A DNA stretch of 64,000 nucleotides, from positions 1-64,000 of the forward strand of contig WFVH01000037.1 of assembly GCA_015491735.1 (NCBI GenBank). Reading direction: 5' to 3'. The translations under genes and the position numbers were made by a program. The notes under the pieces were generated by a model, which saw only the letters and a program-made list of their open reading frames with translations, did no database searches and was not told where the DNA came from. Below, piece after piece: positions 14,468-60,772 of this stretch. How positions within the stretch are numbered: the first letter of the stretch is position 1; the number at the start of each line of letters is the position of its first letter. Source of the DNA: Gammaproteobacteria bacterium. Lineage in GTDB: Bacteria; Pseudomonadota; Gammaproteobacteria; Thiohalospirales; Thiohalospiraceae.

Positions 14468-14615
14468 GTAACCATTCAGTTTGCCCCTGAAATCTGCGAT
14501 TCCTGCGCTGAAAAACAGCCGTTTGCGTAAACTCCCATTTTTCGCCTTGAACTGACGAATTTCAGGGGCAATCTGAACAGTTACCGGCTTGTTTCATACC
14601 ATGCTGAATGGTTAC
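14468..14615 (+). mobile_element. MITE-like repeat, 148 bp, subfamily A
   Basis: A full-length copy of the dispersed repeat. Perfect 12-bp inverted ends GTAACCATTCAG (14468-14479) and CTGAATGGTTAC (14604-14615) enclose a palindromic interior (CCCCTGAAATCTGCG against GACGAATTTCAGGGG) and an internal copy of the end, CTGAACAGTTAC at 14573-14584, which is 31 bp inside the right terminus. It encodes no protein. No convincing 8-bp target duplication is visible here. The right terminus supplies the TAA stop codon of the adjacent minus-strand aminotransferase. Confidence 0.85.
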
Positions 14616-15772
14616 CCGTTATACCGCCTTGCCTCGGCGAGTACGGCGAGCGCTTTTTGCAGGGTGGCCTTGCCGGTATGGAAATGGGGAGAGAAGCGGA
14701 TACCACCGCCACGCCGGGCGCAGACCACGCCGCGCCCGGTTAGCTGCTGGAACAGCTGTTTGTTGCAACGGGAGCGGTGACGAAAGGTGACGATTCCTGC
14801 ATAACGTCCCTTTTCGCGGGGAGAGAGCAGCTCATATTGCCCAAGCCGGGCAATCTCCTCCTGAAGGAGATTGCTGTTATCCAGCAACTGGCTCTCTACC
14901 TGCTCCATGCCATACTCCAGCAGCAGCGACAGGCTGGCATTCAGGGCGTGGATCCCCAGCATGTTCGGGCTGCCACACTCGAAACGGCGGGCTGTGGAAG
15001 CGATTTGCCAGTCGTGGCGATCGTAGTCCAGGTACTCTTCGACCATGTGCCAGCCATACTGGTATAGCCGCAGTTGATCGCGCAGGTCGGCCCGGCAGTA
15101 GAAAAGAGCCACCCCCTCCGGTCCCAGCATCCACTTGTGTCCGTCGGCGACCAGAAAATCGATGCTGTCCGCCTGCACATCCGTTGCGATTGCCCCCACG
15201 CTCTGAATGGCATCTACACAGAACAAAACATCATGCGCGCGGCAATACTCCCCCAGCCGCTTCAAATCCAGGCGCAGGCCGCTGGCGTACTGCACGGAGC
15301 TGATCGCGAGCAGGCGGGTATTGCCGTCTATCTGCGCAATCAACGCCTCTTCCGGTGACGCGCCTTCCGCAAGCCGGGCAGGGCGCAACTTCACCCCCTT
15401 GCCACGCAACGACTCCCACACGATCCGGTTGGAGGGAAACTCTTCGTCGCTGCTGACGATGTTGTCACCCGGGTTCCACTCCAGTCCGTACGCGATGACA
15501 GACAGCCCTTCCGAGGTGTTTTTTAGCAGTGCGATATCGTCAGCGGCAGGGGCATTGATCAGCGTGGCCAACTGCTCACGCAGCCGCTTTTCCGTATTTA
15601 TCCATCGGGGATAGTGGCGTGCACCCTCGGCGGCATTTTCCCGCGCAAACGACTCCACCGCCAGCCGGGTGCGCCGGGGCCAGGGGGTGACCGCCGCATG
15701 GTTGAGATAGGCGACCCCGGGCCGCAAGGTAAACTCCCTTTCAACAAGTAATTGCCGCTGTTGCCTGTTCAT
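14612..15772 (-). CDS. Class V aminotransferase-fold PLP enzyme
   Basis: A 386-residue PLP-dependent enzyme of aminotransferase class V, related to cysteine desulfurases and isopenicillin N epimerase-like proteins. The PLP lysine is in DFLVADGHKWMLGPEG, preceded by LFCVDAIQSVGA with the ring-stacking Asp and Gln. The N-terminus has YLNHAAVTPWP and the C-terminal domain ends with RGGGIRFSPHFH. No conserved catalytic Cys loop of IscS/SufS type was seen, so desulfurase activity is not implied. ATG at 15772 is preferred because it overlaps the upstream CDF stop as ATGA. ATG at 15784 is possible. The stop codon TAA lies inside the terminal repeat of the MITE at 14468-14615, so the last codons were set by that insertion. 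Confidence 0.8.
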   Translation of the reverse strand: MNRQQRQLLVEREFTLRPGVAYLNHAAVTPWPRRTRLAVESFARENAAEGARHYPRWINTEKRLREQLATLINAPAADDIALLKNTSEGLSVIAYGLEWNPGDNIVSSDEEFPSNRIVWESLRGKGVKLRPARLAEGASPEEALIAQIDGNTRLLAISSVQYASGLRLDLKRLGEYCRAHDVLFCVDAIQSVGAIATDVQADSIDFLVADGHKWMLGPEGVALFYCRADLRDQLRLYQYGWHMVEEYLDYDRHDWQIASTARRFECGSPNMLGIHALNASLSLLLEYGMEQVESQLLDNSNLLQEEIARLGQYELLSPREKGRYAGIVTFRHRSRCNKQLFQQLTGRGVVCARRGGGIRFSPHFHTGKATLQKALAVLAEARRYNG

Positions 15773-16683
15773 GGTCGGGTACATGGCTGTTTGTCCGTCT
15801 GACAAACCCCGTTACAGTGCTCCATCTCGAATTCCAGCGTCGAATGCGTAATGGAGAACCGTTTTTCCAGCTCCGCTTTCAGGGTTTTTTTAATCTGTTC
15901 CGTCCGGGCGAAATCATCAATGATAACATGGGCTTCGAGGGCATTCTCATGCTCGTCAAGCTGCCAGATATGAACATGATGGACATTTGTAACCCCCTCC
16001 AGTTGCTCCAGGGAATCGATCACCTCCTCAATGGAGATATCTTCCGGAGCGCCCTGCATCAGAATGTGAATGGTTTGCGGCAGGAGGGTGGCGGCCTGAT
16101 ACAGCACATAGCCGGCAATCAGCAGCGTCAGGACAGTATCACTCCAGTACCAGCCATGGACCAGAATCAGGGTGCCGGCGATGATCACGCCTACCGACGC
16201 CAGGGCGTCGGAGACATTGTGCAGGAAGGCGGCGCGGATGTTCAAGCTGTGCCGGGACATACTGTAGGTGAGCAGCGCCGTGGCCACATCGACCACCAGG
16301 GCAACCGCAGCCACTATGACTACCGTCCACCCTTCGATGGGTTGTGGCTCATAGAAGCGCCACAATGCTTCATAGATTAGATAGAGTCCCACAATCACCA
16401 GCGTGACCAGATTGATCAGCGCAGCGATCACTTCGGCCCGCTTGTAACCGAAAGTTTTGAAGTGATCCGGCGGCTGCCTGCCGATACGGCGCGCCACCCA
16501 GGCGATCAGCAGGGAGGCGGCATCGCTGAAGTTGTGCAGGGCGTCGGCGATCAGCGCCAGACTGCCGGAGACGATACCACCGATAATCTGCGCCAGGGTC
16601 AGCAGCATGTTGATGGCGATGGCCCAACCCAGACGGCGGTCACCCATTGCGCTTGTATCGTGGTGAGTGTGGCCGTGCCCCAT
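15769..16683 (-). CDS. Cation diffusion facilitator metal exporter
   Basis: A 304-residue inner-membrane transporter of the CDF family (CzcD/ZitB-like), exporting Zn2+ and related divalent ions in exchange for protons. It has a His-rich N-terminus (MGHGHTHHD) and six predicted transmembrane helices. The tetrahedral Zn site is formed by HNFSD in TM2 and HNVSD in TM5, and the cytoplasmic dimerisation domain contains VHHVHIWQLDEHENALEAHV. The C-terminal tail has several Cys and His residues. ATG at 16683 is used because GAGGAAG lies 5 bases upstream; GTG at 16689 is the alternative. That Shine-Dalgarno lies in one copy of the apparent target duplication of the repeat at 16696-16787. It follows czcCBA on the same strand. 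Confidence 0.92.
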   Translation of the reverse strand: MGHGHTHHDTSAMGDRRLGWAIAINMLLTLAQIIGGIVSGSLALIADALHNFSDAASLLIAWVARRIGRQPPDHFKTFGYKRAEVIAALINLVTLVIVGLYLIYEALWRFYEPQPIEGWTVVIVAAVALVVDVATALLTYSMSRHSLNIRAAFLHNVSDALASVGVIIAGTLILVHGWYWSDTVLTLLIAGYVLYQAATLLPQTIHILMQGAPEDISIEEVIDSLEQLEGVTNVHHVHIWQLDEHENALEAHVIIDDFARTEQIKKTLKAELEKRFSITHSTLEFEMEHCNGVCQTDKQPCTRP

Positions 16684-16695
16684 AATCACTTCCTC

Positions 16696-16787
16696 GTAAC
16701 GACTTGGCGAGTTGTGGAATCTGGATGTAACAGTTCAGACTGCCCCTGAGATCCGCCGCGGATTTCAGGGGCTGGCCGAGTGGTTAC
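16696..16787 (-). repeat. MITE-like repeat, 92-bp internally deleted copy
   Basis: The outer end GTAACGACTTGGCGAGTTG begins at 16696. The inner end GTAACAGTTCAG starts exactly 31 bp later at 16727, and the opposite terminus GAGTGGTTAC ends at 16787. Most of the central loop is missing, leaving CCCCTGAGATCCGC paired with GCGGATTTCAGGGG. Flanking octamers ACTTCCTC (16688-16695) and GCTCCCTC (16788-16795) match at 6 of 8 positions and differ only by transitions, consistent with an aged target duplication. It sits between czcA and the CDF gene. Confidence 0.75.
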
Positions 16788-16804
16788 GCTCCCTCCTTTA
16801 CGGA

Positions 16805-19800
16805 TTATCGCATATCCGCCAGTTTGCCCCTGGAGAACCAGCGGAAAAGTGATGGCAGCACAAACAGCGTCAGAAATGTCGCCGTCAGCAACCCGCCGAC
16901 GATTACGGTGGCCAGTGGTTTCTGGATCTCCGCCCCGACGCCGGTGGAGAGCAGCATCGGAATCAGTCCCAGCGCGGAGGTGATGGCGGTCATCAACACC
17001 GGGCGCAACCGGGAGACGGCGCCGCTGAATACCGCCTCGTCTACCGGCAGGCCGCCGGCGATGCGCTGGTTGATGCTCTCCACCATCACCACGCCATTGA
17101 GCACCGCCACCCCAAACAGGGTGATGAATCCGATGGAGCTGGGCACCGACAGATACTGTCCGGAGAGGTAGAGCGAAAACACGCCACCGATGACCGCCAG
17201 CGGCACATTGACCAGAATCAGCAGCGCCTGCCCCACCGAGTTGAATGCAAAATAGAGCAGCAGCGCAATCAGTCCCAGTGACAGCGGCACCACCATGCTC
17301 AGGCGTTTCTGTGCACGTTGCTGGCTCTCGAACTGGCCGCCGATATCCACAGAGTAACCGGGCGGGAGTTCCACCTGTTGCTCAATGGCCTGCCGGATGT
17401 CGGCCACCACGCTGCCCATGTCGCGCCCCTGGACGTTGGCCTGGATCACCACGCGGCGCTGGACATCATCCCGGCGCACCTGTGGCGGGCCGGATTCAAT
17501 ACTGATCCGGGCGACATCGCCGAGCCGCACCCAGGGTCCGGTGGGGGATTGCAGCCGCAGATCGGCGATGGTTTCGGGGTTGGTGCGAAACGGGTGGGCC
17601 AGACGCACATAGATATCATAACGCTCGTTGCCGTTGATAATCTGTCCGGCGGTGCGGCCACCCAGGCCATCCCGCACCACAGCCATCACGTCCCCCACCG
17701 CCAATCCGTAGCGGGAGAGCTGTCCGCGATCCGGACGGACAACCAGCTGCGCCTCACCGGCGATCTGCTCCATGGCCACATCCCGGGCGCCATCGATGCC
17801 CTGGACCACCTTCTCGATTGCCTGGCCCTTTTCCGCCAGCACCGCCAGATCAGGACCGAATAGCTTGATTGCCAGCTGCGCCCTGACGCCTGACAGCAAC
17901 TCGTCGACCCGGGTGGCAATCGGCTGCGAAAAGTTGAGCAGCAGCCCGGGGTGCTGCTCCAGCTTCCGTTCCATCAACGCCTGCAACTCCTGGCGGCTGG
18001 AGGCGCTGGTCCATTCGCTGACCGGTTTCAGGCCGATGTAGATTTCGATATTGTTGACCGGCTCCGGATCGCCACCGATCTCCGGGCGGCCGATCCGGCT
18101 CAGCGCATAGTTGACCTCGGGGAACTCCAGCAGCATCGCCTCCAGTTTGGGGGCCACGGCAAGGGTGGTATCCAGGCTGGAGGAGGGGGCCAGCGTGACA
18201 CGCAGGTTGATGGTGCCCTCTTCCAGCTCCGGCACGAACTCTGTACCCAGCCGGGGCAGCATCGCCAGTGCGGCTGCCAGCAGCAACAGCGCACTGCCCA
18301 CCACCACCTTGGGTCTGCCCAGCGCCCAGCCCAGACCGCGCTGGTAGAGTGCATCCAGCGGCTTCAGGATAAAGCTCTCCCTCTCCCTTATTCCGCTGTG
18401 AAACAGGTAGCTGGCCAGGGCGGGGACGATGATCAACGCCACCAGTACCGCCCCCACGATGGCCAGCATGATGCTGATCGCCATCGGTTGAAACAGCTTT
18501 GCTTCCACCCCTTCGAAGGTGAAAAGTGGCATGAATACCACCAGGATGATGGAAGCCGCAAAGAATATCGGCCGCGCCACCTCCTTGCCCGCCTCTTGCA
18601 GGCGCAGTGCGATCCCATGCCGGTCATTGGCAACGTCACGGGGATCGGGAACGCCGGTACCGGCAAGGGTTTGGGCATCCTTTTCGTGTCCGGCGTCGGG
18701 ATGGGACAGATGTTTGAACATGTTGTCCACCATCACCACCGAGCCATCCACCAGCATGCCGATGGCAACGGCGATCCCGCCCAGCGACATCAGGTTGGCG
18801 GAGAGTCCGAACCAGGCCATGATCATCAGGGCGATGCCGATGGAGATCGGGATCGAGATCAGTACCAGAAGGGTAGCGCGCAGATTCATCAGAAACAGTG
18901 CCAGCACCACCACAATAAACACAAAGGCCAGCAGCAGCGCGTTGACCACTGTCGTCACTGCCTGGGTAATCAGATCTGCCTGATCGTAGAACACTTCAAA
19001 ACGCACCCCCTCGGGCAGCGCCTGCTGGATCAGCGCAGCCCGGCTGTTGATCCCGTCGATAGTGGCTTTGGTGTTGGCGCCCATTCGTTTCAGCACGATA
19101 CCGGCAACCACCTCACCCAGCATCTCGGGTTGGCCCGCAGTATCGCGCCGGGTCATGGTTACTGCTCCCTGGCGGATTTCGCTGCCCAACTCCACCGTGG
19201 CCACCTGCGCGACCGTTACCACGGTCCCATCGATGGTTTTCAACGGGATCTGGCGCAGTTCCTCCAGCCCCTGTTCATCATGGCTCAGCCAGCCCACGCC
19301 GCGGATCACCAACTGCTCCTGGCCACGATCCATGTACCAGCCGCCGGCGTTGACGTTGTTGTTCTCCAGCGCTTCCACTACATCTTCCTGGCTCAGTCCA
19401 TAGGCCAGCAGGCGCGACGGGGCCAGATTGACCTGATACTGTCTGACATGACCGCCGAAGGACAATACATCGGTCACCCCGTCCACCGGCATCAGCAGCA
19501 ATTTGACCACCCAGTCATTAAGACTGCGCAGGGTCATGGCATCCAGGCCGGTATCGGGATCGGCCACCAGAAGATACTGGTAGACCTGCCCCAGGCCCGA
19601 GGTGTTGGGACCAATCTCGGGTGTGCCCACCCCCTCCGGGATCAGCTCTTTCGCCGAAACAAGCCGCTCGAACACCAGCTGACGGGCAAAGTAGATGTCG
19701 GTACCCTCCCTGAACACCACCGTAATGCCGGACAGGCCGGTCTTGGAGATGGATCGCACCTCTTCCACATCGGGCAGGGCATACATTACTGCCTCGATAG

Positions 19801-28380: not shown

Positions 28381-28532
28381 GTAACTATTCAGCTCACCCC
28401 TGAAACCTGCCATTTCTGCGTTGAAAAATGGTTATTTACACCAGTAAACTCCCGTTGTTCGCCTTGAATCGGCGAATTTCAGGGGCAATCTGAACAGTTA
28501 CCGGCTTGCTTCATACTAAGCTGAATAGTTAC
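28381..28532 (+). mobile_element. MITE-like element, 152 bp, with perfect 8-bp target duplication
   Basis: Perfect 12-bp terminal inverted repeats GTAACTATTCAG (28381-28392) and CTGAATAGTTAC (28521-28532) bound a non-coding palindromic interior. The octamer CCTCTCTT stands immediately on both sides (28373-28380 and 28533-28540). A second copy of the end, CTGAACAGTTAC at 28490-28501, lies exactly 31 bp inside the right terminus. The element is about 93% identical, in reverse orientation, to 37251-37402. It was inserted in a decayed transposase fragment whose codons continue to the right of it. Confidence 0.92.
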
Positions 28533-29224: not shown

Positions 29225-29375
29225 GTAGCCTCCTGGCCAGCCACTTGAAACCCACCATTTCCACATTAGAAAAATGGTTATCTGCAGTCAATACTCATCT
29301 TTTGCCTTGAACCCGGGCGTTTCATGGGTGATTCGGGCAGTTACCTTCGAGTTCTGTAACTTGCGAAGTGGTTAC
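29225..29375 (+). repeat. MITE-like repeat, 151 bp, diverged copy
   Basis: A diverged copy with the same layout as the 152-bp elements. The left end is GTAGCCTCCTGGCCAGCC at 29225, and AAAAATGG and TTGCCTTGAAC blocks lie inside. The inner right end GGGCAGTTAC finishes at 29344, and the outer end GAAGTGGTTAC finishes at 29375, again 31 bp apart. Flanking octamers CCTGACGG (29217-29224) and CCAGACAG (29376-29383) agree at 6 of 8 positions. It lies between tRNA-Ser and the gltB promoter. Confidence 0.7.
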
Positions 29376-36648: not shown

Positions 36649-36716
36649 GTAACTGCCCGGTGATTTGTAAAATGTTATGGGAACTGACGGATTTCAGGGG
36701 CAAGCTGAGCTGTTGC
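36649..36716 (+). repeat. MITE-like repeat, 68-bp remnant
   Basis: Starts with GTAACTGCCCGG and ends with GCTGAGCTGTTGC, enclosing GACGGATTTCAGGGGCAAG, the right half of the family's palindrome; the left half is lost. Flanking octamers GCCGGCTT and ACCAGTTT match at 5 of 8 positions, all three differences being transitions. It separates hemE from the rhodanese gene. Confidence 0.55.
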
Positions 36717-37196: not shown

Positions 37197-37227
37197 TTTC
37201 AATTTCTACAACTCGCCGGGTAGTTGC
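37197..37227 (+). repeat. Solo 31-bp terminal arm of the MITE-like family
   Basis: The sequence from TTTCAATTTC to GGGTAGTTGC is a 31-bp arm that aligns base for base in length with the outer arm ending at 55666 (TTTCAACTCC to GGGTAGTTAC). No other part of an element is recognisable upstream. It lies 23 bp before the intact copy at 37251. Confidence 0.55.
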
Positions 37228-37250: not shown

Positions 37251-37402
37251 GTAACTATTCAGCATAGTATGAAACAAGCCGGTAACTGTTCAGATTGCCC
37301 CTGAAATTCGTCAGTTCAAGGCGAAAAATGGGAGTTTACGGGTGTAAATGACCATTTTTCAACGCAGAAATGGCGGATTTCAGGGGTGAGCTGAATAGTT
37401 AC
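37251..37402 (-). mobile_element. MITE-like element, 152 bp, with perfect 8-bp target duplication
   Basis: Perfect inverted ends GTAACTATTCAG (37251-37262) and CTGAATAGTTAC (37391-37402) are flanked on both sides by GAAACTTT (37243-37250 and 37403-37410). The inner end GTAACTGTTCAG begins at 37282, 31 bp inside. The interior contains CCCCTGAAATTCGTC against GCGGATTTCAGGGG plus AAAAATGG and CCATTTTT blocks, so a transcript would fold into a long hairpin. There is no coding sequence. It lies 57 bp upstream of the exosortase start and may affect its expression. Confidence 0.92.
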
Positions 37403-37459
37403 GAAACTTTTTTGTTTACTCGCGGCTGGGTGCAGGGCCGCTGTTGATGAGGGTTGTTC

Positions 37460-39076
37460 GTGAAAGATAGTTTGAAGAGACAGACAATATGGCGAGAGTC
37501 CCCATGGATGTGGGCGGCTCTGGTGGCTCTGTTTGGGCTGCTGGTGCTTATTTTTTACGACGGTCTCTACGCAATGGTGCAGGCATGGAAGAGAGAAGAG
37601 TACAGCCATGGCTACATGATTCCGCTGGTCGTGGCCTTTCTCATCTGGCAGAAAAAAGATCAGCTGGAGAAGATCCGGTTCGACGACTCCTGGATTGGTG
37701 TCGCTTTTGTCCTCCTGGGAATTGGACTCTATTTTCTGGGAGAGCTAAGCACCCTCTATATCATTATCCAGTATGCCTTTCTGGTGACCCTGTTTGGGGT
37801 CGTGTTCTGCCTGGTTGGCCGTGAAGGTATGCGGAACATATGGATTCCGCTACTCTTTCTGGGCTTCATGATCCCCCTTCCATCATTTATTTTCAATAAC
37901 TTGTCGGCCCTCCTTCAGCTGATCTCTTCGGAATTGGGGGTGGCGGTAATCCGCCTTTTCGGTGTCAGCGTCTATCTGGAGGGGAATGTTATCGACTTGG
38001 GCAACTACCAGCTGCAGGTGGTAGAAGCCTGCAACGGGCTGCGCTACCTGTTCCCGTTGATGAGTCTGGCTTTTTTGTGCGCCTATTTTTTCAAGGGGGC
38101 TTTCTGGAAACGGGCAGTTATCTTCATTTCCAGTATTCCCATCACGGTACTGATGAACAGTTTTCGCATTGGTGTCACGGGTGTTCTCGTTGACTACAAA
38201 GGTATTGCGATGGCCGAGGGGTTTCTGCATGACTTCGAAGGCTGGTTCATCTTCATGAGTTGTCTGGCCATTCTTCTTGGTGAAATGTGGCTACTGTCCA
38301 AAATAGGCCGCGACGGCAAACGCCCATTGCGCGAGGTGTTCGGTCTGGATTTTCCTGAACCCTCTCCACAAGGCGCTTCCATACGCTATCGATCGTTGCC
38401 AAAACCGTTCATTTTCTCAGCGGTTTTATTGGCGGTGACCGCAGCATCCTCCTTTCTGCTGGTACAGAGAGAGGAAATCATCCCCTCGCGCACGGATTTT
38501 TCCGCTTTCCCGTTGCAAATAGGTGATTGGCAGGGAAAGGGTGAGCGCATGGAGCAAATCTATGTCGATGCGCTCAAGTTTGATGACTACATCATGGCGA
38601 ATTTTGCCAATGGAACCGGCGGGGTCGTCAATTTCTACGTTGCCTATTACGGCTCGCAGAGAAAGGGGGAGTCGGCCCATTCCCCCCGTTCATGCCTGCC
38701 GGGGGATGGGTGGCAGATGACCGGATTGACGGTGAAGCAGGTGGACGATGCGCATATCAATGGTGTTCCGTTGAAGGTAAACCGTGTCGAGATCCAGAAA
38801 GGGGAGTACAAGCAACTGGTCTACTATTGGTTCCAGCAGCGGGGCCGGATAATAACAAACGAGTATTTGGTAAAATGGTACCTGTTTTGGGATGCGCTGA
38901 CCAAAAACCGCACCGATGGGGCGTTGGTCAGATTGACTACACTGGTGCTGCCAAACGAGGATATGAGCGATGCGGAGAGGCGGCTTGATAACTTTACCAA
39001 AAGCGTTGCCGGCGTACTGGACGGTTATGTCCCGGGTGCTGATGCGGATCCTCCGCAGATTGTGGCTCACAATTGA
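37460..39076 (+). CDS. xrtD: Exosortase XrtD fused to an EpsI domain (VPLPA-CTERM-specific type)
   Basis: A 538-residue protein. Residues 1 to about 300 form a multi-pass exosortase with the transpeptidase triad Cys191 (VVEACNGLRYLFPL), Arg236 (LMNSFRIGVTG) and His257 (FLHDFEGWFIF). After a further membrane segment near residue 315 comes a periplasmic EpsI/DUF3485 domain (DFSAFPLQIGDWQGKGERM, HSPRSCLPGDGWQM). Exosortases cleave the C-terminal sorting tag of exported proteins and attach or release them at the cell surface. Assignment to XrtD rests on the EpsI fusion and the VPLPA-CTERM substrate nearby. GTG at 37460 is preferred because GAGGG lies 6 bases upstream; TTG at 37454 is less likely. 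prsT follows. Confidence 0.85.
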   Translation: MKDSLKRQTIWRESPWMWAALVALFGLLVLIFYDGLYAMVQAWKREEYSHGYMIPLVVAFLIWQKKDQLEKIRFDDSWIGVAFVLLGIGLYFLGELSTLYIIIQYAFLVTLFGVVFCLVGREGMRNIWIPLLFLGFMIPLPSFIFNNLSALLQLISSELGVAVIRLFGVSVYLEGNVIDLGNYQLQVVEACNGLRYLFPLMSLAFLCAYFFKGAFWKRAVIFISSIPITVLMNSFRIGVTGVLVDYKGIAMAEGFLHDFEGWFIFMSCLAILLGEMWLLSKIGRDGKRPLREVFGLDFPEPSPQGASIRYRSLPKPFIFSAVLLAVTAASSFLLVQREEIIPSRTDFSAFPLQIGDWQGKGERMEQIYVDALKFDDYIMANFANGTGGVVNFYVAYYGSQRKGESAHSPRSCLPGDGWQMTGLTVKQVDDAHINGVPLKVNRVEIQKGEYKQLVYYWFQQRGRIITNEYLVKWYLFWDALTKNRTDGALVRLTTLVLPNEDMSDAERRLDNFTKSVAGVLDGYVPGADADPPQIVAHN

Positions 39077-39189
39077 TATCCGCGCTTGGAAGCGCCTTGT
39101 ACGCGGGGCCGTTATCCGTTGTTTTGGCAAGGGCAGAGCCTGTCCGGCAGTCCGGGTGGATAGCCGGGCCTGAAAAAGTTTAAAGAAGG

Positions 39190-39311
39190 GCAACGACTCA
39201 ACTGGTCCCTGAAATCCGCCACTTCTGCGTTGAAAAAGGGTCAGTTACAACGATAAATTCGCGCTTTTCGCCTTGAACTGGCAGATTTCAGGAGGGGCGG
39301 TTGAGAGTTAC
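39190..39311 (+). repeat. MITE-like repeat, 122 bp, without the 31-bp arm
   Basis: Runs from GCAACGACTCAACTGG to GGTTGAGAGTTAC with the family's interior blocks CCTGAAATCCGCC, TTCTGCGTTGAAAAA, TTCGCCTTGAACTGG and CAGATTTCAGG. Its 122-bp length equals the 152-bp form minus one arm. Flanking octamers AAAGAAGG (39182-39189) and AAAGAAAA (39312-39319) agree at 6 of 8, with two transitions. It ends 31 bases before the prsT start codon. Confidence 0.75.
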
Positions 39312-39342
39312 AAAGAAAATTATTCGGAATTCTGGAGATAAT

Positions 39343-41727
39343 ATGTTTTCTCGAACAGCGGGCTACCTGTGTTTATCCTTGTTAATAGTACTGTTCCTGC
39401 CGGGTTGCAGTTCGAGCGAACAGGCTGCCAAATATCTGGAGAGGGGAAAGGCCTATTACGAGGAAGGTAACTATGACAAGGCCAGAATCGAACTGAAGAA
39501 TGTACTTCAAATCGATCCGAAGAGTGTTGATGGGCACTACTATCTTGCGCTGACTTACGAGAAAAAACAAGATCTTAAAAAGGCTTTTTCACATTTTCTG
39601 GCAGTGCTCGAACTGGATCCCGAAAGCATTCCCGGGCGGCTTCAGGTTGGAAGATACCATTTGCTTGCCCGGCAGGAAGAGAAGGCGATGGAGATGGTTG
39701 ATTCGCTGTTGGCCGAAGAGCCGGATAACCCGGAGGCCATTGCGCTGAAGGGGGCCGTTCTTGCCCGCCAGGGGGATGAAGCGGGGGCACTCAAAGCGGC
39801 GGAAAAAGCCTACCAATTGGCACCGGGGAACAAGGAGGTCATTCTGCTACTCTCTTCGCTCTATCAAAAAGAGCAGCCTGGTAAAGCTGCCGAGGTGTTG
39901 AAGAAAGGGATGGAGAAAAACCCGGATGCGGAGATTCTCCGCCTCAAGTTGATTGAGGTCTACTGGAACAGCAAGAATACTGCCGCCCTGGAAGGGGTAC
40001 TTCGGGAAAGTATCGCGGCTTTTCCTCAAAACTCCCTCTATGTCACACAACTGGCGCAGTTGTATGCTGGAATGGAGAAGCTGGACGAGGCTGAACAGGT
40101 TCTTCGGGATTCGGCTGCCGCCAATCCCGGCGACGAGGAGCGGGAGCTGGTATTGGCCAGCTTCCTTGAGGAAAAGCGTGGCGCAGAGGCTGCCGAGAGT
40201 GAACTTCTCGAGTTTATCGGCAACTACCCGGAGGCATTCAAGGCTCGTTTTGGACTGGCAACCTTGTACAAGAAAAACAATCAGCTAGAAAAGGCGGAGC
40301 AGGTTTATCGGGATATCGTTGCTGCAAAAGATACGGAACTGGAAGGACTGCAGGCCAAAAATGAGCTGGCAATCCTTTACTTCAATAAAGGGGAGTTTGA
40401 CCAGGCAAAAGGGCTGGTTTCAGAGATACTGGAGACCAGTGCCAAAGATCCCCAGGCCTTGCTGACGCGGGGACGGATTGCGTTGCAGCAAGGGGAGGTC
40501 AAACAGGCCATCAACGATTTCCGGACTATCTTGCAGGGAGAGCCCGAGTCTGACACTACCCTGATGCTCCTGGCCGATGCGCAACTGCGCAATAACGAAC
40601 CGGAGTTGGCGCGGGAAAACCTCCGTAAGGCAATCAAGGCCAACCCAAGGGCGCTCAACGCCCGTTATGCGTTGATGAATCTGCTGATCTCGCAGAAGAG
40701 ATATGACGAAGCATTGCAGCAGACAGAGGCGCTTTTGAAACGCTACCCCGAAGATCGCCGCGGACTGCTGACAGCGGCTGATATCCACGCAATCAAGAAA
40801 GAGTGGGATCAGGTTGAAGAGATCGCCGCCAGACTCAAACAGCTTCATCCCGGGGATTCAGCAGGATATGTCAGGCTGGGGCGGCTGTACGCTTCGCAAA
40901 AGCGCTATGATGAAGCCATCAAGGAGCTGAAAACCGCTTTGGCCAAATTCCCCGGGCAGCCTGCTGCTGTCATCGCATTGACGAAGGTCTACGTGGCGAA
41001 AGGGGAGATAGCCAAGGCCGTTTCTTTCTTGCAGCAGCAGATCGAAAGCACGCCAGACAACCGGGCCGGCTATTATAACCTGCTCGGCGAACTCCACCTG
41101 CTGCAGCAACAGCAGCAGGCCGCAGTTGGGGCCTTTCAGGAATCCATTTCATCTTCCGGCAAGGCGTGGAGTACCGCTGTCAGAAACCTGGCGAATCTTT
41201 TTTTGAGACAGGGAAAGCCTGAACAAGCGGTGAAGCTAGTCCGAACAGCCATAAAAAAAGAGCCGGGTAACAGTGTGCCGATGCTGTTTCTGGCAGGTAT
41301 CCATGAGCGTACCGCCGACTACGACAGCGCCATACAGGTATACAGGGATACCCTCGAAACTCACCCGGGCAGTGATGTGGCCGCCAACAATCTTGCATCA
41401 CTGTTGACCGACCATAAAGGAGATGCCGACAGTCTGCAGCAAGCATTTGAGCTGGCCCAGGGTTTCGAAGATGCTGCCAATCCGGCCTATATCGATACCC
41501 TTGGTTGGCTGTATTACAAGCTGGGCGACGGTGACAAGGCGGTAGAACTGCTGGAAAAAGCGGTGCGCAAGGCGCCCGGGGTTGCTGTTTTCAACTACCA
41601 TCTTGGCATGGCCTACTCGGCAATCGGAAAAAACGAGCTGGCCCGTCGACACCTGGAAACCGCCTTGGCAGCCGGAGAGGGTTTCTCGAACGCCGCTGAG
41701 GCCAGGAAAAAGCTCGATTCATTGTAA
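39343..41727 (+). CDS. prsT: PEP-CTERM-system TPR lipoprotein PrsT
   Basis: A 794-residue lipoprotein with signal peptide and lipobox (FLPGC, near residue 22) followed by about 20 tetratricopeptide repeats covering the whole mature chain. Examples are AAKYLERGKAYYEEGNYDKARIELKNVLQ at the start and YIDTLGWLYYKLGDGDKAVELLEKA near the end. Length, architecture and position beside an exosortase match PrsT, a TPR protein that accompanies exosortase/PEP-CTERM systems and exopolysaccharide loci. It probably scaffolds export or surface assembly in the periplasm; no enzyme activity is expected. ATG at 39343 is chosen over an upstream TTG because GGAG lies just before it and the signal peptide then starts correctly. 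Confidence 0.88.
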   Translation: MFSRTAGYLCLSLLIVLFLPGCSSSEQAAKYLERGKAYYEEGNYDKARIELKNVLQIDPKSVDGHYYLALTYEKKQDLKKAFSHFLAVLELDPESIPGRLQVGRYHLLARQEEKAMEMVDSLLAEEPDNPEAIALKGAVLARQGDEAGALKAAEKAYQLAPGNKEVILLLSSLYQKEQPGKAAEVLKKGMEKNPDAEILRLKLIEVYWNSKNTAALEGVLRESIAAFPQNSLYVTQLAQLYAGMEKLDEAEQVLRDSAAANPGDEERELVLASFLEEKRGAEAAESELLEFIGNYPEAFKARFGLATLYKKNNQLEKAEQVYRDIVAAKDTELEGLQAKNELAILYFNKGEFDQAKGLVSEILETSAKDPQALLTRGRIALQQGEVKQAINDFRTILQGEPESDTTLMLLADAQLRNNEPELARENLRKAIKANPRALNARYALMNLLISQKRYDEALQQTEALLKRYPEDRRGLLTAADIHAIKKEWDQVEEIAARLKQLHPGDSAGYVRLGRLYASQKRYDEAIKELKTALAKFPGQPAAVIALTKVYVAKGEIAKAVSFLQQQIESTPDNRAGYYNLLGELHLLQQQQQAAVGAFQESISSSGKAWSTAVRNLANLFLRQGKPEQAVKLVRTAIKKEPGNSVPMLFLAGIHERTADYDSAIQVYRDTLETHPGSDVAANNLASLLTDHKGDADSLQQAFELAQGFEDAANPAYIDTLGWLYYKLGDGDKAVELLEKAVRKAPGVAVFNYHLGMAYSAIGKNELARRHLETALAAGEGFSNAAEARKKLDSL

Positions 41728-49825: not shown

Positions 49826-50680
49826 ATGATCTCCATGGTTCCCTGGCCGGCACCGGCAAAACTCAATCTGTTTCTCCACATAACCGGGCGCCGCGCCGAT
49901 GGCTATCATCTTCTGCAAACCGTATTCCAGTTTCTGGACTATGGCGACGCGCTTCTCTTCCGTATTCGCAAGGATGGCTCGATTCGCCGTCTCTCTTCCT
50001 TGACAGGGGTTGGCGAGAACCAGGATCTGGCCATACGCGCGGCCCGGTTGCTGCAGCAGCAGTGCCGCGTTACCCAAGGCGTCGAGATCCGGGTGGACAA
50101 ACGGCTGCCTTTGGGTGGCGGGCTGGGGGGGGGGAGTTCGGATGCGGCAACCACGCTCGTTGCGTTGAATCACTTGTGGAATACCGGCCTGGATACAGAA
50201 GCGCTTTGTGCGCTGGGGTTGACACTGGGCGCTGATATCCCCGTGTTCATCCAGGGGCATGCAGTCTGGGCAGAGGGCATCGGGGAGCGGTTTACCCCGG
50301 TGGAGCTGCCGGAGCCGTGGTTTCTGGTAGTGATCCCGCCCGTCGAGGTCGCCACGGCCGAAGTTTTTTCAGCTCCGGATTTGATACGCGACGCCCAGCC
50401 TATTACAATACGCGCTTTTCTCGAGGGGAAAGGGGAAAACACCCTTGAGGAGTTCGTCACGAAACGCTACCCCCCGGTGAGGGAAGCGCTGGCCTGGTTA
50501 AGCCAATACAGCCAGGCGAGGATGACCGGCAGCGGAGGCTGCCTGTTTGCCTCCTTCGGGAAACGGGCGGAGGCGGAGCAGGTATTGAGCCGGCTGCCTG
50601 AGGGCTGGGGCGGCTTCGTGGCCAGAGGGCGGAACCGTTCACCGCTGCTGGAGCGGTTGCGCCGGGAAAAGTTCGCCTAA
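49826..50680 (+). CDS. ispE: 4-diphosphocytidyl-2-C-methyl-D-erythritol kinase
   Basis: A 284-residue GHMP-family kinase that phosphorylates CDP-ME in the MEP pathway of isoprenoid synthesis. The N-terminus WPAPAKLNLFLHITGRRADGYH has the substrate-binding Lys, and the glycine-rich ATP loop is LPLGGGLGGGSSDAATTL. The C-terminal GHMP motif is ARMTGSGGCLFASF. The length matches the family. The TAA stop lies within the first bases of the repeat that begins at 50677, so the repeat end now supplies the stop codon. Confidence 0.95.
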   Translation: MISMVPWPAPAKLNLFLHITGRRADGYHLLQTVFQFLDYGDALLFRIRKDGSIRRLSSLTGVGENQDLAIRAARLLQQQCRVTQGVEIRVDKRLPLGGGLGGGSSDAATTLVALNHLWNTGLDTEALCALGLTLGADIPVFIQGHAVWAEGIGERFTPVELPEPWFLVVIPPVEVATAEVFSAPDLIRDAQPITIRAFLEGKGENTLEEFVTKRYPPVREALAWLSQYSQARMTGSGGCLFASFGKRAEAEQVLSRLPEGWGGFVARGRNRSPLLERLRREKFA

Positions 50681-50797
50681 CTGCCCGGATTATCGCTGGA
50701 GATCGGTCGGTTCAAGGCGAAAAAAGCGAGTCTCAACTGTAACTGACCATTTTTCAACACGGCAATGGTGGTTTCCAGGGGCTGGCCGAGCAGTTAC
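50677..50797 (-). repeat. MITE-like repeat, 121 bp, without the 31-bp arm
   Basis: Starts CTAACTGCCCGG (a one-base variant of GTAACTGCCCGG) and ends GGCCGAGCAGTTAC, with TTCAAGGCGAAAAAA, CCATTTTTCAACAC and GGTTTCCAGGGG blocks inside. Flanking octamers AAGTTCGC (50669-50676) and AAATTTGC (50798-50805) agree at 6 of 8, both differences being transitions. It sits between ispE and tRNA-Gln, providing the ispE stop and ending 23 bases before the tRNA. Confidence 0.78.
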
Positions 50798-55489: not shown

Positions 55490-55524
55490 TGTTAACCCGG
55501 CAACAATGGATGCCGCATTCAGAA

Positions 55525-55594: not shown

Positions 55595-55600
55595 CCTCTG

Positions 55601-55666
55601 GTAATTTGGTTTTATAAGGCTGGCTGAGCAGTTACTTTCAACTCCTGCAACTCACTGGGTAGTTAC
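55601..55666 (+). repeat. MITE-like right end with 31-bp arm
   Basis: The inner end GGCTGGCTGAGCAGTTAC finishes at 55635 and the outer end ACTGGGTAGTTAC at 55666, the family's 31-bp spacing. A left end is uncertain. If it is GCCGCATTCAG at 55512, the element is 155 bp with flanks CAATGGAT and CAATGCAC (6 of 8). The arm ends 2 bases before the ATG of the uracil-DNA glycosylase and contains its initiation region. Confidence 0.6.
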
Positions 55667-55668
55667 CA

Positions 55669-56298
55669 ATGCACTTCGATCCGGACTGCCGCTCCTGTCC
55701 CCGTCTGGCCGGTTTTCTGGCCGGTATCCGGGAGGCGTATCCAGCTTATCACGCCCGGCCGGTGGCGCCGTTTGGTGATCCTGATGCCCGGTTGCTGATT
55801 GTTGGACTGGCGCCGGGCATGCATGGCGCCAACGCCACCGGTCGGCCTTTTACCGGGGATTATGCCGGCATCCTGCTTTATGAGACGCTCTACCGGTTCG
55901 GTTTCAGCAATCAATCTGCCGCTACGGGGAGGGACGACGGGTTGACTCTCGATGGCTGCCGCATTACCAACGCCGTAAAATGCCTGCCGCCGCAGAACAA
56001 GCCGGTTGGCAGCGAGGTAACCGAGTGCAACCGCTATCTGCGTGCAGAGCTGGCGGATCTCGATGACGGCGCGGCCGTCCTGGCGCTGGGTTTGGTTGCT
56101 CATCGCGCCGTGATTCGGGCGCTGGGACTGAAGATGACAGATTACCCGTTTGCCCACTGCCGGAAGCACCGGCTGGACAGAAAGCGCTGGCTGATCGATT
56201 CTTATCATTGCAGCCGCTACAATACGCAGACGCGCCGTCTTACGGAGGAGATGTTTCACAATGTGTTCCGGGAGATAGAGAAACTCCTGGCCGCCTGA
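55669..56298 (+). CDS. Uracil-DNA glycosylase, family 5 (UDGb type)
   Basis: A 209-residue DNA repair glycosylase that removes uracil, and in family 5 also hypoxanthine, from DNA. Family 5 landmarks are LLIVGLAPGMHGANATGRPF (motif 1 without the Asn/Asp of other families) and FTGDYAGILLYETLYRFGF. The DNA-minor-groove loop is SYHCSRYNTQTRRL, in place of HPSP. Cysteines in DCRSCPRL, AVKCLPP and VTECNRYL are placed to bind a 4Fe-4S cluster. It is followed after 4 bases by uvrC, so two excision-repair functions are in one operon. No good Shine-Dalgarno is present; the region just upstream is the arm of a repeat. Confidence 0.88.
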   Translation: MHFDPDCRSCPRLAGFLAGIREAYPAYHARPVAPFGDPDARLLIVGLAPGMHGANATGRPFTGDYAGILLYETLYRFGFSNQSAATGRDDGLTLDGCRITNAVKCLPPQNKPVGSEVTECNRYLRAELADLDDGAAVLALGLVAHRAVIRALGLKMTDYPFAHCRKHRLDRKRWLIDSYHCSRYNTQTRRLTEEMFHNVFREIEKLLAA

Positions 56299-56302
56299 TC
56301 GC

Positions 56303-58144
56303 ATGAATCCGGTTCCATTCAATCCCAAGCAGTTTATCTCCAGGCTGACCAGCCGTCCGGGTGTCTATCGCATGATGGATGGTGAGGGAAACGTTATCTA
56401 TGTAGGCAAGGCGCGCAACCTCAAAATGCGGGTCTCCAGCTATTTTGGACAGCACATTTCCAGCGCAAAAACCCGTCATATGGTGGCGCAGATCCGGCAG
56501 ATCGAGATCACCATAACCCACACAGAAAACGAGGCGCTGATTCTGGAGAACAATCTCATCAAGGCGTTGAAGCCCCGCTACAACATCCTGTTGCGTGATG
56601 ACAAGAGCTATCCTTATATCTATCTCTCCAGTCATCAAGACTTTCCGCGGCTGGGCAGTTACCGGGGCGCCAGAAGCGGGCCGGGCCGCTATTTTGGCCC
56701 CTACCCCAGCACCGGGGCGGTGCGGGAGACGCTGAATTTGATGCAGAAGCTGTTCCGGGTGCGCCAGTGCGAAGACTCGTTCTACGGAAATCGCAGCCGT
56801 CCCTGTCTGCAGTACCAGATTAAACGTTGCAGTGCTCCCTGCACCGGCTTGATCGACAAAGAGCGTTATCGGCAGGATGTTCGCCATGCGGCGCTTTTTC
56901 TGGAGGGAAAGAGCAACGAGGTGATCGATGATCTGGTCAAGCAGATGGATGCGGCATCGGAGGCGCTGGAGTTTGAGCAGGCAGCGCGCTATCGGGATCA
57001 GATTGCCAGTTTGCGCCGGGTGCAGGAGCGGCAGTATGTCAGCGGTGCGGGGGGAGATCTGGACGTGATTGCCGGCGTGGTAAAGAACGGGGTCGGCTGC
57101 ATCCAGCTGTTTTCCATCCGCGACGGGCGCAATCTCGGAAACAGGAGCTGGTTTCCCCGCCACACCGGTAACAGCGATGCAGCCGAATTGCTGGCCGCCT
57201 TTTTGCCGCAATACTACCTTTCGGGCGACAGCCGCAGCCGGGAAATTCCCGCTGATATTTTGCTCAATCAGCCGCTGGATGAGGCCGGGTGGCTGACTGC
57301 CGTACTGACATCCCGGGCGGGCCACAAGGTGGCGATCCGTCACCGGCTACGGGGTGAGCGCGCCCGCTGGGTGAAGCTGGCCGAGGCAAACGCCGCTGCG
57401 GCGCTGGAGAGCCATCTGGCCGGCAGGGCCAGTATGCACAGCCGTTTCGAGAGGTTGCAGGAGGCGCTGGGGCTGGACGAACTGCCCCGGCGAATCGAGT
57501 GTTTCGATATCAGCCATACCACGGGAGCATTTCCTGTGGGTTCGTGTATCGTGTTCGATGTTTGCGGTCCAGTGAAAGCGGAGTACCGCCGCTTCAATAT
57601 CAGGAATATCACACCAGGCGATGATTACGCCGCGCTGGAGCAGGCGCTCAGCCGCCGCTACACCCGCGTTGTAAAAGGGGAGGGGAAATTGCCGGATGTG
57701 CTGATAATCGACGGTGGCAAGGGGCAGATTGCCCGGGCAAACAGCGTACTGGAAGAGCTGCAGATTCGTGGTGTTGCCGTACTGGGCATTGCCAAGGGGC
57801 CGACCCGGAAGCCGGGGCGGGAGACGCTGTTCTTGTCCGGACGGGAGCAGCCCCTTATACTGCCGGGAGACTCGCCAGCGCTGCATCTGATTCAGCAGAT
57901 CGACGGAGAGGCACATCGTTTTGCCATCACAGGGCACCGCCAGCGGCGTGGAAAGGCGCGTGCTACTTCGGTACTGGAGGGGATCTCTGGTCTCGGCCCA
58001 AAACGGCGCCGGCAGCTATTGCGGCAGTTTGGCGGCCTGCAAGAGGTGGCGCGCGCCGGGGTCGAGGATCTGGTGCGGATACAGGGTATAAGCCGCGCCC
58101 TGGCGCAACGGATTTATGACAGTTTCCACCCGGATAGTGGGTAG
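56303..58144 (+). CDS. uvrC: Excinuclease ABC subunit C
   Basis: A 613-residue nuclease making both incisions in nucleotide excision repair. The N-terminal GIY-YIG domain contains GVYRMMDGEGNVIYVGKARNL, the UVR domain near residue 205 has SNEVIDDLVKQMDAASEALEF, and the RNase H-like 5' nuclease domain includes RIECFDISHTTGAFPVGSCIVF and VLIIDGGKGQIARA. Two helix-hairpin-helix motifs at the C-terminus end in GISRALAQRIYDSF. Full length. It is followed after 5 bases by pgsA, the conserved uvrC-pgsA pair. Confidence 0.97.
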   Translation: MNPVPFNPKQFISRLTSRPGVYRMMDGEGNVIYVGKARNLKMRVSSYFGQHISSAKTRHMVAQIRQIEITITHTENEALILENNLIKALKPRYNILLRDDKSYPYIYLSSHQDFPRLGSYRGARSGPGRYFGPYPSTGAVRETLNLMQKLFRVRQCEDSFYGNRSRPCLQYQIKRCSAPCTGLIDKERYRQDVRHAALFLEGKSNEVIDDLVKQMDAASEALEFEQAARYRDQIASLRRVQERQYVSGAGGDLDVIAGVVKNGVGCIQLFSIRDGRNLGNRSWFPRHTGNSDAAELLAAFLPQYYLSGDSRSREIPADILLNQPLDEAGWLTAVLTSRAGHKVAIRHRLRGERARWVKLAEANAAAALESHLAGRASMHSRFERLQEALGLDELPRRIECFDISHTTGAFPVGSCIVFDVCGPVKAEYRRFNIRNITPGDDYAALEQALSRRYTRVVKGEGKLPDVLIIDGGKGQIARANSVLEELQIRGVAVLGIAKGPTRKPGRETLFLSGREQPLILPGDSPALHLIQQIDGEAHRFAITGHRQRRGKARATSVLEGISGLGPKRRRQLLRQFGGLQEVARAGVEDLVRIQGISRALAQRIYDSFHPDSG

Positions 58145-58149
58145 GCGAT

Positions 58150-58725
58150 ATGTGGTCAAATATTCCCAATATTCTCACCTTGCTGCGTATTGCCCTGATT
58201 CCGATTTTTGTGATTTGCTTCTATCTTCCGATCGCCAGCGCACATACCGCCAGTGCACTGTTGTTCACCCTGGCGGCGGTTACCGACTGGCTTGACGGCC
58301 ACCTGGCCCGCCGACTGCAACAGGTTTCACCGTTTGGCGCCTTTCTCGACCCGGTAGCGGACAAACTGATGGTGGCGGCGGCCCTGGTGTTGCTGGTGGA
58401 GAACAACCCGACCAACTACGCAGGCGTTTACATCGCCATCCCGGCCATTGTCATTATTGGACGTGAAATTGCCATATCCGCCTTGCGGGAGTGGATGGCA
58501 GAGCTGGGCGCCCGCACCAGGGTCGCGGTCTCTTACATCGGCAAGGTGAAAACAGCCCTTCAGATGACGGCAATCATCCTGCTGCTCTACCGCGCGCCGA
58601 TTGGGAGCGTTCCGGTAGTGGAAGTGGGGTTCTGGCTGCTGTATGCGGCTGCCGGATTGACGCTGTGGTCGATGGCGGTCTATCTGCGGGCGGCCTGGCC
58701 CATGCTCAAGGGAAGTTCGCCTTGA
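58150..58725 (+). CDS. pgsA: CDP-diacylglycerol-glycerol-3-phosphate 3-phosphatidyltransferase
   Basis: A 191-residue inner-membrane enzyme that makes phosphatidylglycerol phosphate. The CDP-alcohol phosphatidyltransferase signature D-G-x2-A-R-x8-G-x3-D-x3-D is complete in DWLDGHLARRLQQVSPFGAF followed by LDPVADK. N-terminus WSNIPNILTLLRIALIPIFV and several transmembrane helices fit the family. It is downstream of uvrC and upstream of tRNA-Met. Confidence 0.95.
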   Translation: MWSNIPNILTLLRIALIPIFVICFYLPIASAHTASALLFTLAAVTDWLDGHLARRLQQVSPFGAFLDPVADKLMVAAALVLLVENNPTNYAGVYIAIPAIVIIGREIAISALREWMAELGARTRVAVSYIGKVKTALQMTAIILLLYRAPIGSVPVVEVGFWLLYAAAGLTLWSMAVYLRAAWPMLKGSSP

Positions 58726-58770
58726 CAGGAGAGCACCGAAACCGGAAAATGCGCGTGCGGAACCCATCAT

Positions 58771-58847
58771 GGCTATGTAGCTCAGCTGGTTAGAGCACAG
58801 CACTCATAATGCTGGGGTCGGTGGTTCGAATCCACCCATAGCCACCA
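58771..58847 (+). tRNA. tRNA-Met (anticodon CAT, elongator type)
   Basis: A complete 77-nt cloverleaf. The acceptor stem GGCTATG pairs with CATAGCC, the anticodon loop CTCATAA gives CAT, the T-loop is GTTCGAATC and CCA is encoded. The first pair is G-C, and the body resembles elongator Met rather than initiator (no C-A mismatch). A lysidine-modified Ile tRNA is less likely. Confidence 0.92.
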
Positions 58848-59334
58848 TAACCTCATCCAATACCATCCCATAAGCACGCCAACCCCCTGTTGTTTAAAAA
58901 AATTATTTAATCGCCATGATGACGATGGCAGACCTGAGTGGTGGGGAATCTGGGCGTGGTGGTTATCTTGGAGTATAAGGTGTAGTAGTTCAGATTTGAC
59001 CTGACAGTCGCTTCTACACCTTATCTTTGCTCATGGTAACATACCTCCTCTGCTGTTCATCAGTTATGCAAAACCGGTTTCAGCAGGGTGCGCCACCTTC
59101 TCCAATCTTTCCGTACACCAGTTTCGAGCATGGTTCACGCATGCATTATCTGGCCCCAGGTGAGTTCATCGCCGATGTTCGCTTTGATCTTTACTTCCGT
59201 ATTGTGGAAGTTGTTTTTGGTGGTTATCATGTGTATCCCCTGAATTGTTGCTACCTGACGGTAAATTTGACGGCATGCAAGTTTCGAGGACGGGAAATGC
59301 CCAGCGGAAACAGATAGTTCCGGGGGGCGACAGC
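58848..59334. other. Gene-poor region with an inverted repeat and possible relics
   Basis: A 487-bp stretch without a recognised gene. ATAAGGTGTAG (58975-58985) and CTACACCTTAT (59014-59024) form an 11-bp inverted repeat around TCAGATTTGACCTGA. On the minus strand there is GAGGAGG followed by an ATG at 59034 and only five codons before a stop. Further right, on the minus strand, a 31-codon frame (59135-59230) starts MITTKNNFHNTEVKIKANIG with AGGGG upstream. Broken reading frames with good ribosome-binding sites suggest decayed mobile DNA, but no family was identified. Confidence 0.35.
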
Positions 59335-59419
59335 GCCCATACTTGGTGAGTTGCAGAATTTGAAAGTAACTGCCCGGATTGCGCCTGAAATCCGTTGGCC
59401 CAAGGCGAAAAAACGGATC
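59335..59419 (-). repeat. MITE-like repeat, truncated left half
   Basis: The inner end GTAACTGCCCGG starts at 59366. The 31 bp before it (59335-59365) resemble the outer arm at 16696 (ACTTGGTGAGTTGCAGAAT against ACTTGGCGAGTTGTGGAAT), although its first bases are no longer GTAAC. GCCTGAAATCCG and CAAGGCGAAAAAACGG follow, then the copy breaks off at a hairpin beginning near 59420. Confidence 0.6.
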
Positions 59420-59423
59420 ATGT

Positions 59424-59527
59424 TCAGAACTTCAAGCGTCCTTCCGATCAAGACATCACATGTCGTCAATGGTTATTCCATTGGAACAAACGTGATAACA
59501 CAGAGCTGAAGGACGCTTGAAGTTCGG
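59424..59527. repeat. Long-armed hairpin related to 55525-55594
   Basis: GAACTTCAAGCGTCCTTC (59427-59444) is perfectly complementary to GAAGGACGCTTGAAGTTC (59508-59525). The stem extends outwards with one mismatch. Its first bases TTCAGAACTTCAAG are the same as in the hairpin at 55 kb, while the remaining stem sequence differs on both arms. Confidence 0.55.
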
Positions 59528-59586
59528 AATACAGTCCCGTCGATGCCAGGTCAATACTATCCAACAACCATTCAAGACACGCGATA

Positions 59587-60744
59587 ATGACTTCATGGCC
59601 GTATTTTGCTGAGGACGAAATTGCTGCGGTCAGCGCTGTTTTGCGTTCCGGAAAGGTGAATTACTGGACCGGGCAAGAGGGGCGGGAGTTTGAAAAAGAG
59701 TTCGCCGACCACTGCCAGGTGAACCATGCCGTCGCGGTAGCAAATGGCACGGTTGCGCTGGAACTGGCTCTGCAGGCCCTGGGGATTGGCCCCGGTGATG
59801 AGGTGGTTGTAACACCGCGGACATTTCTGGCAACAGCCAGCGCGGTTATCATGCGGGGTGCGAAACCGCTGTTTGCCGATCTGGATCCGGCCTCCGGCAA
59901 CCTGTCAGCAGAGACAATCGAGGCCGTGTTGACACCCGCTACCCGCGCTGTTATTCCCGTCCATCTGGCAGGTTGGCCGTGCGACATGGATCCCATACTG
60001 GAGCTGGCTGGCAGGCGGGGCATAAAAGTCATCGAGGATTGCGCCCAGGCGCATGGCGCGCGCTACAAGGGGCGGCCGGTCGGTTCGATGGGTGATGCCG
60101 CGGCATTCTCTTTCTGTCAGGACAAGATTATGACCACCGGCGGCGAGGGCGGGATTCTGGTCACCAACAGCGAGACCACATGGAAGCGGGCCTGGGCTTT
60201 CAAGGATCACGGCAAGAGTTACGATACGGTGTATCGCCGCCAGCATCCTGACGGATTCCGCTGGTTGCACGAATCCTTCGGCACCAACTGGCGCATGAGC
60301 GAGATGCAGTCGGCAATTGGCCGTTTGCAACTGCGCAAACTGCCGCAATGGCATGAGGCCCGAAGCCGTAATGCCGGGGTATTGCAACGCTGCTTCCAGG
60401 CCATCCCGGCCCTGCGCGTCGAGCATCCCCCTGAAGAGATACAGCATGCCTGGTACAAGTACTATGTCTATGTTCGTCCCGAGCGGTTGAAGCCGGGCTG
60501 GAACCGGGATCGGATCATGGCGGCCATCAATACCGCCGGAGTACCCTGTTTCAGCGGTTCCTGCTCCGAAATCTATCGGGAGAAGGCGTTCGATGAAACA
60601 GGACTGCGTCCTGCCAGCCGCCTGCCCGTTGCCAGGGTATTGGGTGAAACCGCGTTGATGTTTCTCGTCCATCCAACGCTTGCCGCAGCGGATCTGGAGC
60701 GCACCTGCCGGGTGGTGGAGAAGGTGTTCGCGCAAGCAGCCTGA
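59587..60744 (+). CDS. DegT/DnrJ/EryC1/StrS family aminotransferase
   Basis: A 385-residue PLP-dependent enzyme that usually aminates keto-sugars on nucleotide carriers for polysaccharide or natural-product synthesis. The N-terminus FAEDEIAAVSAVLRSGKVNYWTG is typical, the phosphate-binding loop is VANGTVALELALQALGIGPGDEV, and the PLP aspartate is in IKVIEDCAQAHGARYKG. The Schiff-base Lys is in FSFCQDKIMTTGGEGG, followed by GTNWRMSEMQSAIGRLQL. Substrate is not evident and no sugar nucleotide genes are adjacent. The TGA stop coincides with a fragment of the repeat family. It precedes the SRP RNA gene. Confidence 0.88.
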   Translation: MTSWPYFAEDEIAAVSAVLRSGKVNYWTGQEGREFEKEFADHCQVNHAVAVANGTVALELALQALGIGPGDEVVVTPRTFLATASAVIMRGAKPLFADLDPASGNLSAETIEAVLTPATRAVIPVHLAGWPCDMDPILELAGRRGIKVIEDCAQAHGARYKGRPVGSMGDAAAFSFCQDKIMTTGGEGGILVTNSETTWKRAWAFKDHGKSYDTVYRRQHPDGFRWLHESFGTNWRMSEMQSAIGRLQLRKLPQWHEARSRNAGVLQRCFQAIPALRVEHPPEEIQHAWYKYYVYVRPERLKPGWNRDRIMAAINTAGVPCFSGSCSEIYREKAFDETGLRPASRLPVARVLGETALMFLVHPTLAAADLERTCRVVEKVFAQAA

Positions 60745-60772
60745 GCAGAAATTACAACTCGCTGAGTGGTTG
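60739..60772 (+). repeat. Fragment of the MITE-like right arm
   Basis: GCCTGAGCAGAAATTACAAC and CTCGCTGAGTGGTTGTG resemble the inner end (CTGAGCAGTTAC) plus the last part of the 31-bp arm (CAACTCGCYGRGTRGTTAC). The TGA stop of the DegT-family gene lies within it. Confidence 0.4.

Follow-up and report, generated by a model that had tools for sequence, protein, structure and literature searches.

What are the short palindromic repeats that recur between the genes of a Thiohalospiraceae draft genome, and what moves them? The question is raised by bases 1-64000 of contig C37 (WFVH01000037.1) of a 2.43-Mb, 101-contig assembly; this 64-kb stretch is referred to here as the window. A sequence-only reading of the window had described the repeats as non-autonomous elements resembling miniature inverted-repeat transposable elements (MITEs), with 8-bp target duplications, and had guessed that an IS66-type transposase encoded elsewhere was responsible for their movement. 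In the current analysis, we confirmed that the repeats constitute a MITE family, larger than first noted. Its mobilizer is very probably an ISBst12-group IS66 transposase acting in trans; the insertion sequences (ISs) of this group carry a single gene, tnpC.

A profile search of the window recovered all eight main copies of the earlier reading with their starts correctly placed (Table 1), six of them with E values of 1e-24 or better and two more weakly (16696, E 5e-9; 36649, E 5e-6). In addition, the 12-mer GTAACTATTCAG with up to two mismatches occurs 19 times in the window vs. 1.7 expected. The previously listed fragments fared unevenly: those at 55601 and 59335 were found again with adjusted boundaries and that at 37197 is an orphan tail, but that at 60739 was not recovered by the profile, and a core fragment near the start of the window had been missed. 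The element is 121 or 152 bp long, lacks a transposase gene and has the terminal inverted repeat GTAACTATTCAGC at both ends. The window's own genome contains 348 exact matches to this repeat, compared to none for the reversed control, together with 164 cores in which both ends are perfect (~1% of the genome) and 111 full 152-bp forms whose two outer ends are intact. Young copies are 98-99% identical, and 28 copies differ from the genome consensus at 1-12 of 152 positions. Many contigs of the draft genome start or end inside a MITE copy, and some of these ends can be paired by their octamers (GACAGAAG on C64 and C22; ACTGTTAC on C32 and C86). No copy was found in the plasmids, phages and viral contigs searched. 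A 2.16-kb gap between motif pairs on C3 was considered as a transposase-bearing element and rejected, as it consists of ordinary genes separating distinct MITE copies.

The case for transposition rests on target duplications and empty sites. Among the 26 internal copies of the own genome for which both flanks are available, the flanking octamers match at 8/8 positions in 19, at 7/8 in two and at 6/8 in one. Summed over these copies, octamer matches amount to 177, whereas 10,000 shuffles averaged 58 and never exceeded 95. In the window, the identical octamers reported for two copies and the partial matches reported for five others were reproduced on recheck, and 10 of the 11 differences among these seven copies are transitions. 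The joined flanks of five young copies were also aligned to the genomes of sister species. At one such site (L017, contig C52), the alignment runs straight through without the element in three genomes (G001, G003, and G006); G001 has a single octamer-like sequence, GAAACTAT, where the own genome has AAAACCAT and AAAACTAT. The site of the 36649 remnant, which lies between uroporphyrinogen decarboxylase and rhodanese genes, holds a full copy in G006 and a plain, empty spacer of ~20 bp in G003 and G004. Since the sister species are only ~73-85% identical, a single exact octamer can be made out only partly, and none could be obtained for 28381 and 37251 in sister species because the intergenic flanks of these copies do not align there. 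Two findings that would speak against mobility, a lack of empty sites and octamers matching no better than shuffled ones, were thus both looked for and neither was seen. The genome-wide duplications and the empty sites in sister species support the description of the family as a MITE with 8-bp target duplications.

The ends of the MITE point to a particular kind of mobilizer. The only IS66 gene of the own genome is truncated and lies on contig C39. The left end of this remnant (GTAACTATTCAGCTGAG; the longer stretch upstream of the gene is GTAACTATTCAGCTGAGAAACTG...) has its homologue in the left end of a 1.73-kb element, intact and with one gene only, from an Ectothiorhodospiraceae metagenome-assembled genome (81% protein identity); the IS66 protein of this element is 100% identical to one in G273, which belongs to the same class. 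In G002, a genus mate, the right end GCTGAATAGTTAC, identical to the MITE end, stands just behind an IS66 C-terminus, and an IS66 element on an Oceanisphaera plasmid has the perfect ends GTAACTATTCAGCTT. Nine further intact IS66 elements from the same class, 1.47-1.72 kb in size, have ends like GTAACTACTCAGC or GTAACCATTCAGC and 8/8 duplications. Both Pfam and NCBIfam assign the tested proteins to IS66 transposases. The MITE ends agree at 13/13 positions with the own remnant, the genus-mate remnant and the L098 element, and at 12-13/13 with L096. Correspondingly, ISDge4 of the ISBst12 group has the ends GTGACTACTCAGCA / GTAACTGCTCAGCA and an 8-bp repeat, and its transposition has been observed (PMC12898284). 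Classical IS66 elements, with ends GTAAGCG, GTAAGCGTCCGG... (PMC12888890), were rejected as mobilizers, since this sequence differs from GTAACTATTCAGC of the MITE; L113 also has the classical GTAAGCG ends, unlike the MITE. The results support the view that the MITE ends are those of single-gene ISBst12-group elements, which are GTAACTAYTCAGC-like and accompanied by 8-bp duplications, and narrow the earlier guess of an IS66-type mobilizer to that group, with which both ends and duplication length agree. By eye, the truncated IS66 gene (L054:3319-4269) runs into an open reading frame (ORF) resembling a transposase associated with repetitive extragenic palindromes (Y1-type), which is preceded by short tandem CACACATGGGGTCAG-type repeats.

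As a correction to the sequence-only reading, two mobile forms have to be separated: a 121-bp core (39190 and 50677) and a 152-bp form (28381 and 37251) in which an extra end motif lies 31 bp beyond the right end of the core. The loci retrieved contain 108 distinct copies in total, of which 86 carry the outer motif beyond the core, at a distance of 31 bp in about 70 and of 32 bp in 7; two copies in G327 have a spacing of 20 bp. Where the outer motif is present, the target duplication abuts it. Core-only copies are few, and their duplication lies directly at the core end (e.g., L210, 8/8; L256, 7/8; and the two core-only copies in the window). G020 and some G006 copies were at first candidates for the 121-bp form but are in fact of the 152-bp form, with a spacer that differs. 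Among five tails compared, the 18-base spacers are unrelated (11-44% identical); over the outer 13 bases, identity is 77-100%. A spacer of fixed length and free sequence suggests that the tail may hold a phased second transposase site. The right end of the MITE is unusual, and its two-form anatomy appears to be new.

Another feature of the element is its core, a near-perfect palindrome that folds as a long hairpin; for the whole element, folded as DNA, z is -6.0. Ten cores, representing six species and five families, were aligned; 93.8% of the alignment cells pair and 18 of the 42 pairs show changes on both sides, a level of paired change that none of 500 shuffles reached. When the arms were slid by one to three bases, pairing fell to under 48%; deriving the structure from a single member tilts the test somewhat in its favor, but the fall in pairing is nevertheless large. 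Paired changes thus maintain the core hairpin across bacterial families, which looks like a new feature. Either selection on the hairpin or template-switch correction of palindromes could account for its upkeep.

The MITE family occurs in all seven genus mates, each with its own variant, and identity to the own-genome consensus is ~95% in G001 and G007, ~89% in G006 and G003, and 83% or less in G004 and G005. Perfect-ended cores number 45 in G006, 39 in G007, 14 in G001, 5 in G003 and 2 in G002; none occurs in the four genomes of the same family outside the genus. The MITE is also present in single genomes of other families of the class (G020, G211, G242, and G327). This distribution suggests that the family spread long ago or horizontally and then multiplied in bursts within individual species. 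With regard to placement, a long spanning frame, of at least 150 aa, is present in the joined flanks of 12 of 25 own copies, compared to 90% of random window positions, and therefore insertions favor intergenic DNA. A spanning frame is not necessarily a gene, so that 12/25 is an upper bound.

Several observations weigh against an ISBst12-group mobilizer. An intact cognate transposase is absent from the own genome and the seven genus mates (eight draft genomes), G020 has many MITE copies and no IS66 match, and the IS66 elements L096 and L098 themselves lack matching octamers. Moreover, the likeness between MITE and IS is confined to ends of 13-14 bp; once the outer 14 bp are removed, local alignments with six IS ends and with one whole IS score close to shuffled sequence. 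The absence of a mobilizer is weak evidence, as draft assemblies break at repeats; with the only IS66 gene of the own genome truncated, the mobilizer was not found intact and its role is one that we infer. Similarly, as the likeness ends with the outer 14 bp, descent of the MITE from an IS by shrinkage is not shown, and an origin by internal deletion of an IS66 element was rejected for want of common subterminal sequence; the MITE may have acquired its ends, or a new interior may have taken the place of the original one. The lack of an assembled intact IS66 element of the right type in the genus and the unrelated MITE interior would also fit mobilization by a transposase of another family whose end sequence is shared by chance. 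We regard this as improbable, given the 13-bp end identity with the remnants in the own genome and the genus mate, the equal duplication length, and the occurrence of the same end in intact ISBst12-group elements.

A different explanation is that the repeat has been domesticated by the host as an intergenic transcription terminator or mRNA-stabilizing hairpin that is kept for its RNA structure, its mobility lying only in the past. The paired changes that keep the hairpin across families, the strong folding, and the bias towards intergenic sites are in line with such a role, but purifying selection also predicts the intergenic bias and template-switch correction of palindromes also yields paired changes, whereas recent mobility is evident from the perfect duplications, the empty sites and identities of 98-99%. 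Domestication in place of mobility is therefore very unlikely; a domesticated role could hold in addition to it. Since many contigs start or stop inside a copy, an assembly artefact or a mosaic of palindromes similar by chance might also be considered. However, internal copies have unique flanks and duplications and the family occurs in independent genomes; the absence of reversed-control matches, the counts of perfect-ended cores, and the excess of duplications over shuffles refute this explanation, to which we give next to no weight.

If an ISBst12-group transposase does act in trans, it would recognize GTAACTATTCAG(C) at both MITE ends, and the element would be joined to staggered cuts 8 bp apart, with gap repair yielding the 8-bp duplication. 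The 121-bp core is mobile by itself, and the outermost end motif is used in the longer form, where the double end presumably helps transposase binding. The mobilizer was probably present recently and is now lost or unassembled, and each species would have amplified its own subfamily, mainly into intergenic spaces. We offer only tentatively, and with some doubt, the idea that the doubled right end is functional, such that a second putative transposase site, set off outward from the core by 31 bp or about three helical turns, would make the MITE a better substrate than its parent IS. The conserved hairpin would then be a second functional part, for example as extruded DNA in transposition or as an RNA hairpin rendering insertions harmless.

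Two window copies contribute a stop codon to the gene beside them. The 14468 copy provides a class-V aminotransferase ORF (14612-15805, minus strand) with its stop codon, via the TAA in GTAAC, and the 50677 copy does the same for a GHMP-kinase ORF (49826-50680). A lone GTAACTGCTCAG motif at 11453-11464, lying in a short space between genes, may be what is left of an end or a chance match. A second dispersed palindromic repeat of about 115-150 bp, with ends AATCAGGATTCAG / CTGAATCCTGATT, was seen in the left flank of L021 (contig C21, own genome; bases 24-174 of the joined query); it occurs in all or nearly all genus genomes, often within the first 140 bases of a contig, and is not present in the window. 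Elsewhere in the window, an exosortase gene (EpsH domain and DUF3485) followed by a gene for a large TPR protein (37454-41724) suggests an exopolysaccharide or PEP-CTERM locus, and a 253-nt direct repeat of 74% identity (6293-6545 and 6689-6941) is probably a duplicated protein domain.

Table 1. MITE copies and fragments in the window, with flanking octamer matches or basis of detection.
Feature	Position	Strand	Details
Full 152-bp copy	28381..28532	+	Core 28381-28501, tail 28502-28532; octamers 8/8, CCTCTCTT
Full 152-bp copy	37251..37402	-	99% identity to genome consensus; octamers 8/8, GAAACTTT
Full-type copy, 148 bp	14468..14615	+	No target duplication (1/8)
Old copy, interior deleted, left-side tail	16696..16787	-	Octamers 6/8
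Old full-type copy with tail	29225..29375	+	Octamers 6/8
Old remnant, interior deleted	36649..36716		Octamers 5/8
Old core-only copy, 122 bp	39190..39311	+	Octamers 6/8
Old core-only copy, 121 bp	50677..50797	-	Octamers 6/8
Right-end fragment with 31-bp tail	55618..55666	+	Profile match
Right-end fragment, tail degenerate	59339..59416	-	Profile match
Orphan 31-bp tail, old subfamily, adjoining the 37251 copy on its left	37197..37227	+	Similarity to other old tails
Core fragment	about 3880..3940	-	Profile search, E 1.3e-7
Tail-like fragment, weak	60739..60772		Sequence only; not recovered by profile search

Compared to described elements, the MITE is a new family of a known kind. Chunjie, MITEAba12, MITECca01, QMITE1/2, and ERIC, in the parts of the reports that we compared, are likewise short and gene-less, with terminal inverted repeats, target duplications and many, mostly intergenic copies (PMC10969869, PMC9769881, PMC5896051); there, MITECca01 is derived from an IS982-family element, unlike the present MITE. 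The compared portions of the literature on other bacterial MITEs do not describe a second end motif at fixed spacing. Keyword searches of a limited literature collection returned no MITE ascribed to the IS66 family or the ISBst12 group, and IS66 does not appear in a 2024 review of prokaryotic MITEs. ISBst12-group elements such as ISDge4 share with the MITE the ends GTRACTRCTCAGCA and the 8-bp direct repeat (PMC12898284), but they are 1.5-1.7 kb long and encode TnpC, whereas the MITE is gene-less and has only 13-14 end bases in common with them. Classical IS66 elements such as ISPsko1 and ISPa75 start with GTAA like the MITE (PMC12888890), but their ends continue GCGTCCGG where those of the MITE continue CTATTCAG, and they contain tnpA, tnpB, and tnpC. 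Duplications of 8 bp are also listed for the IS66 elements of Paracoccus (PMC3281130).

The family has practical consequences, in that it breaks draft assemblies and supplies stop codons to neighboring genes, while its duplications can be used to join contigs. The mechanism of IS66 elements is poorly understood, that of the ISBst12 group especially, and a 121-bp element with defined ends, accompanied by natural 152-bp and spacing variants, constitutes a ready set of substrates for a transposase. Should the doubled right end prove functional, the MITE would represent a class of IS66-dependent elements with an end architecture of its own, as opposed to a shrunken IS. The family indicates that single-gene IS66 transposons can support highly successful parasites of their own.

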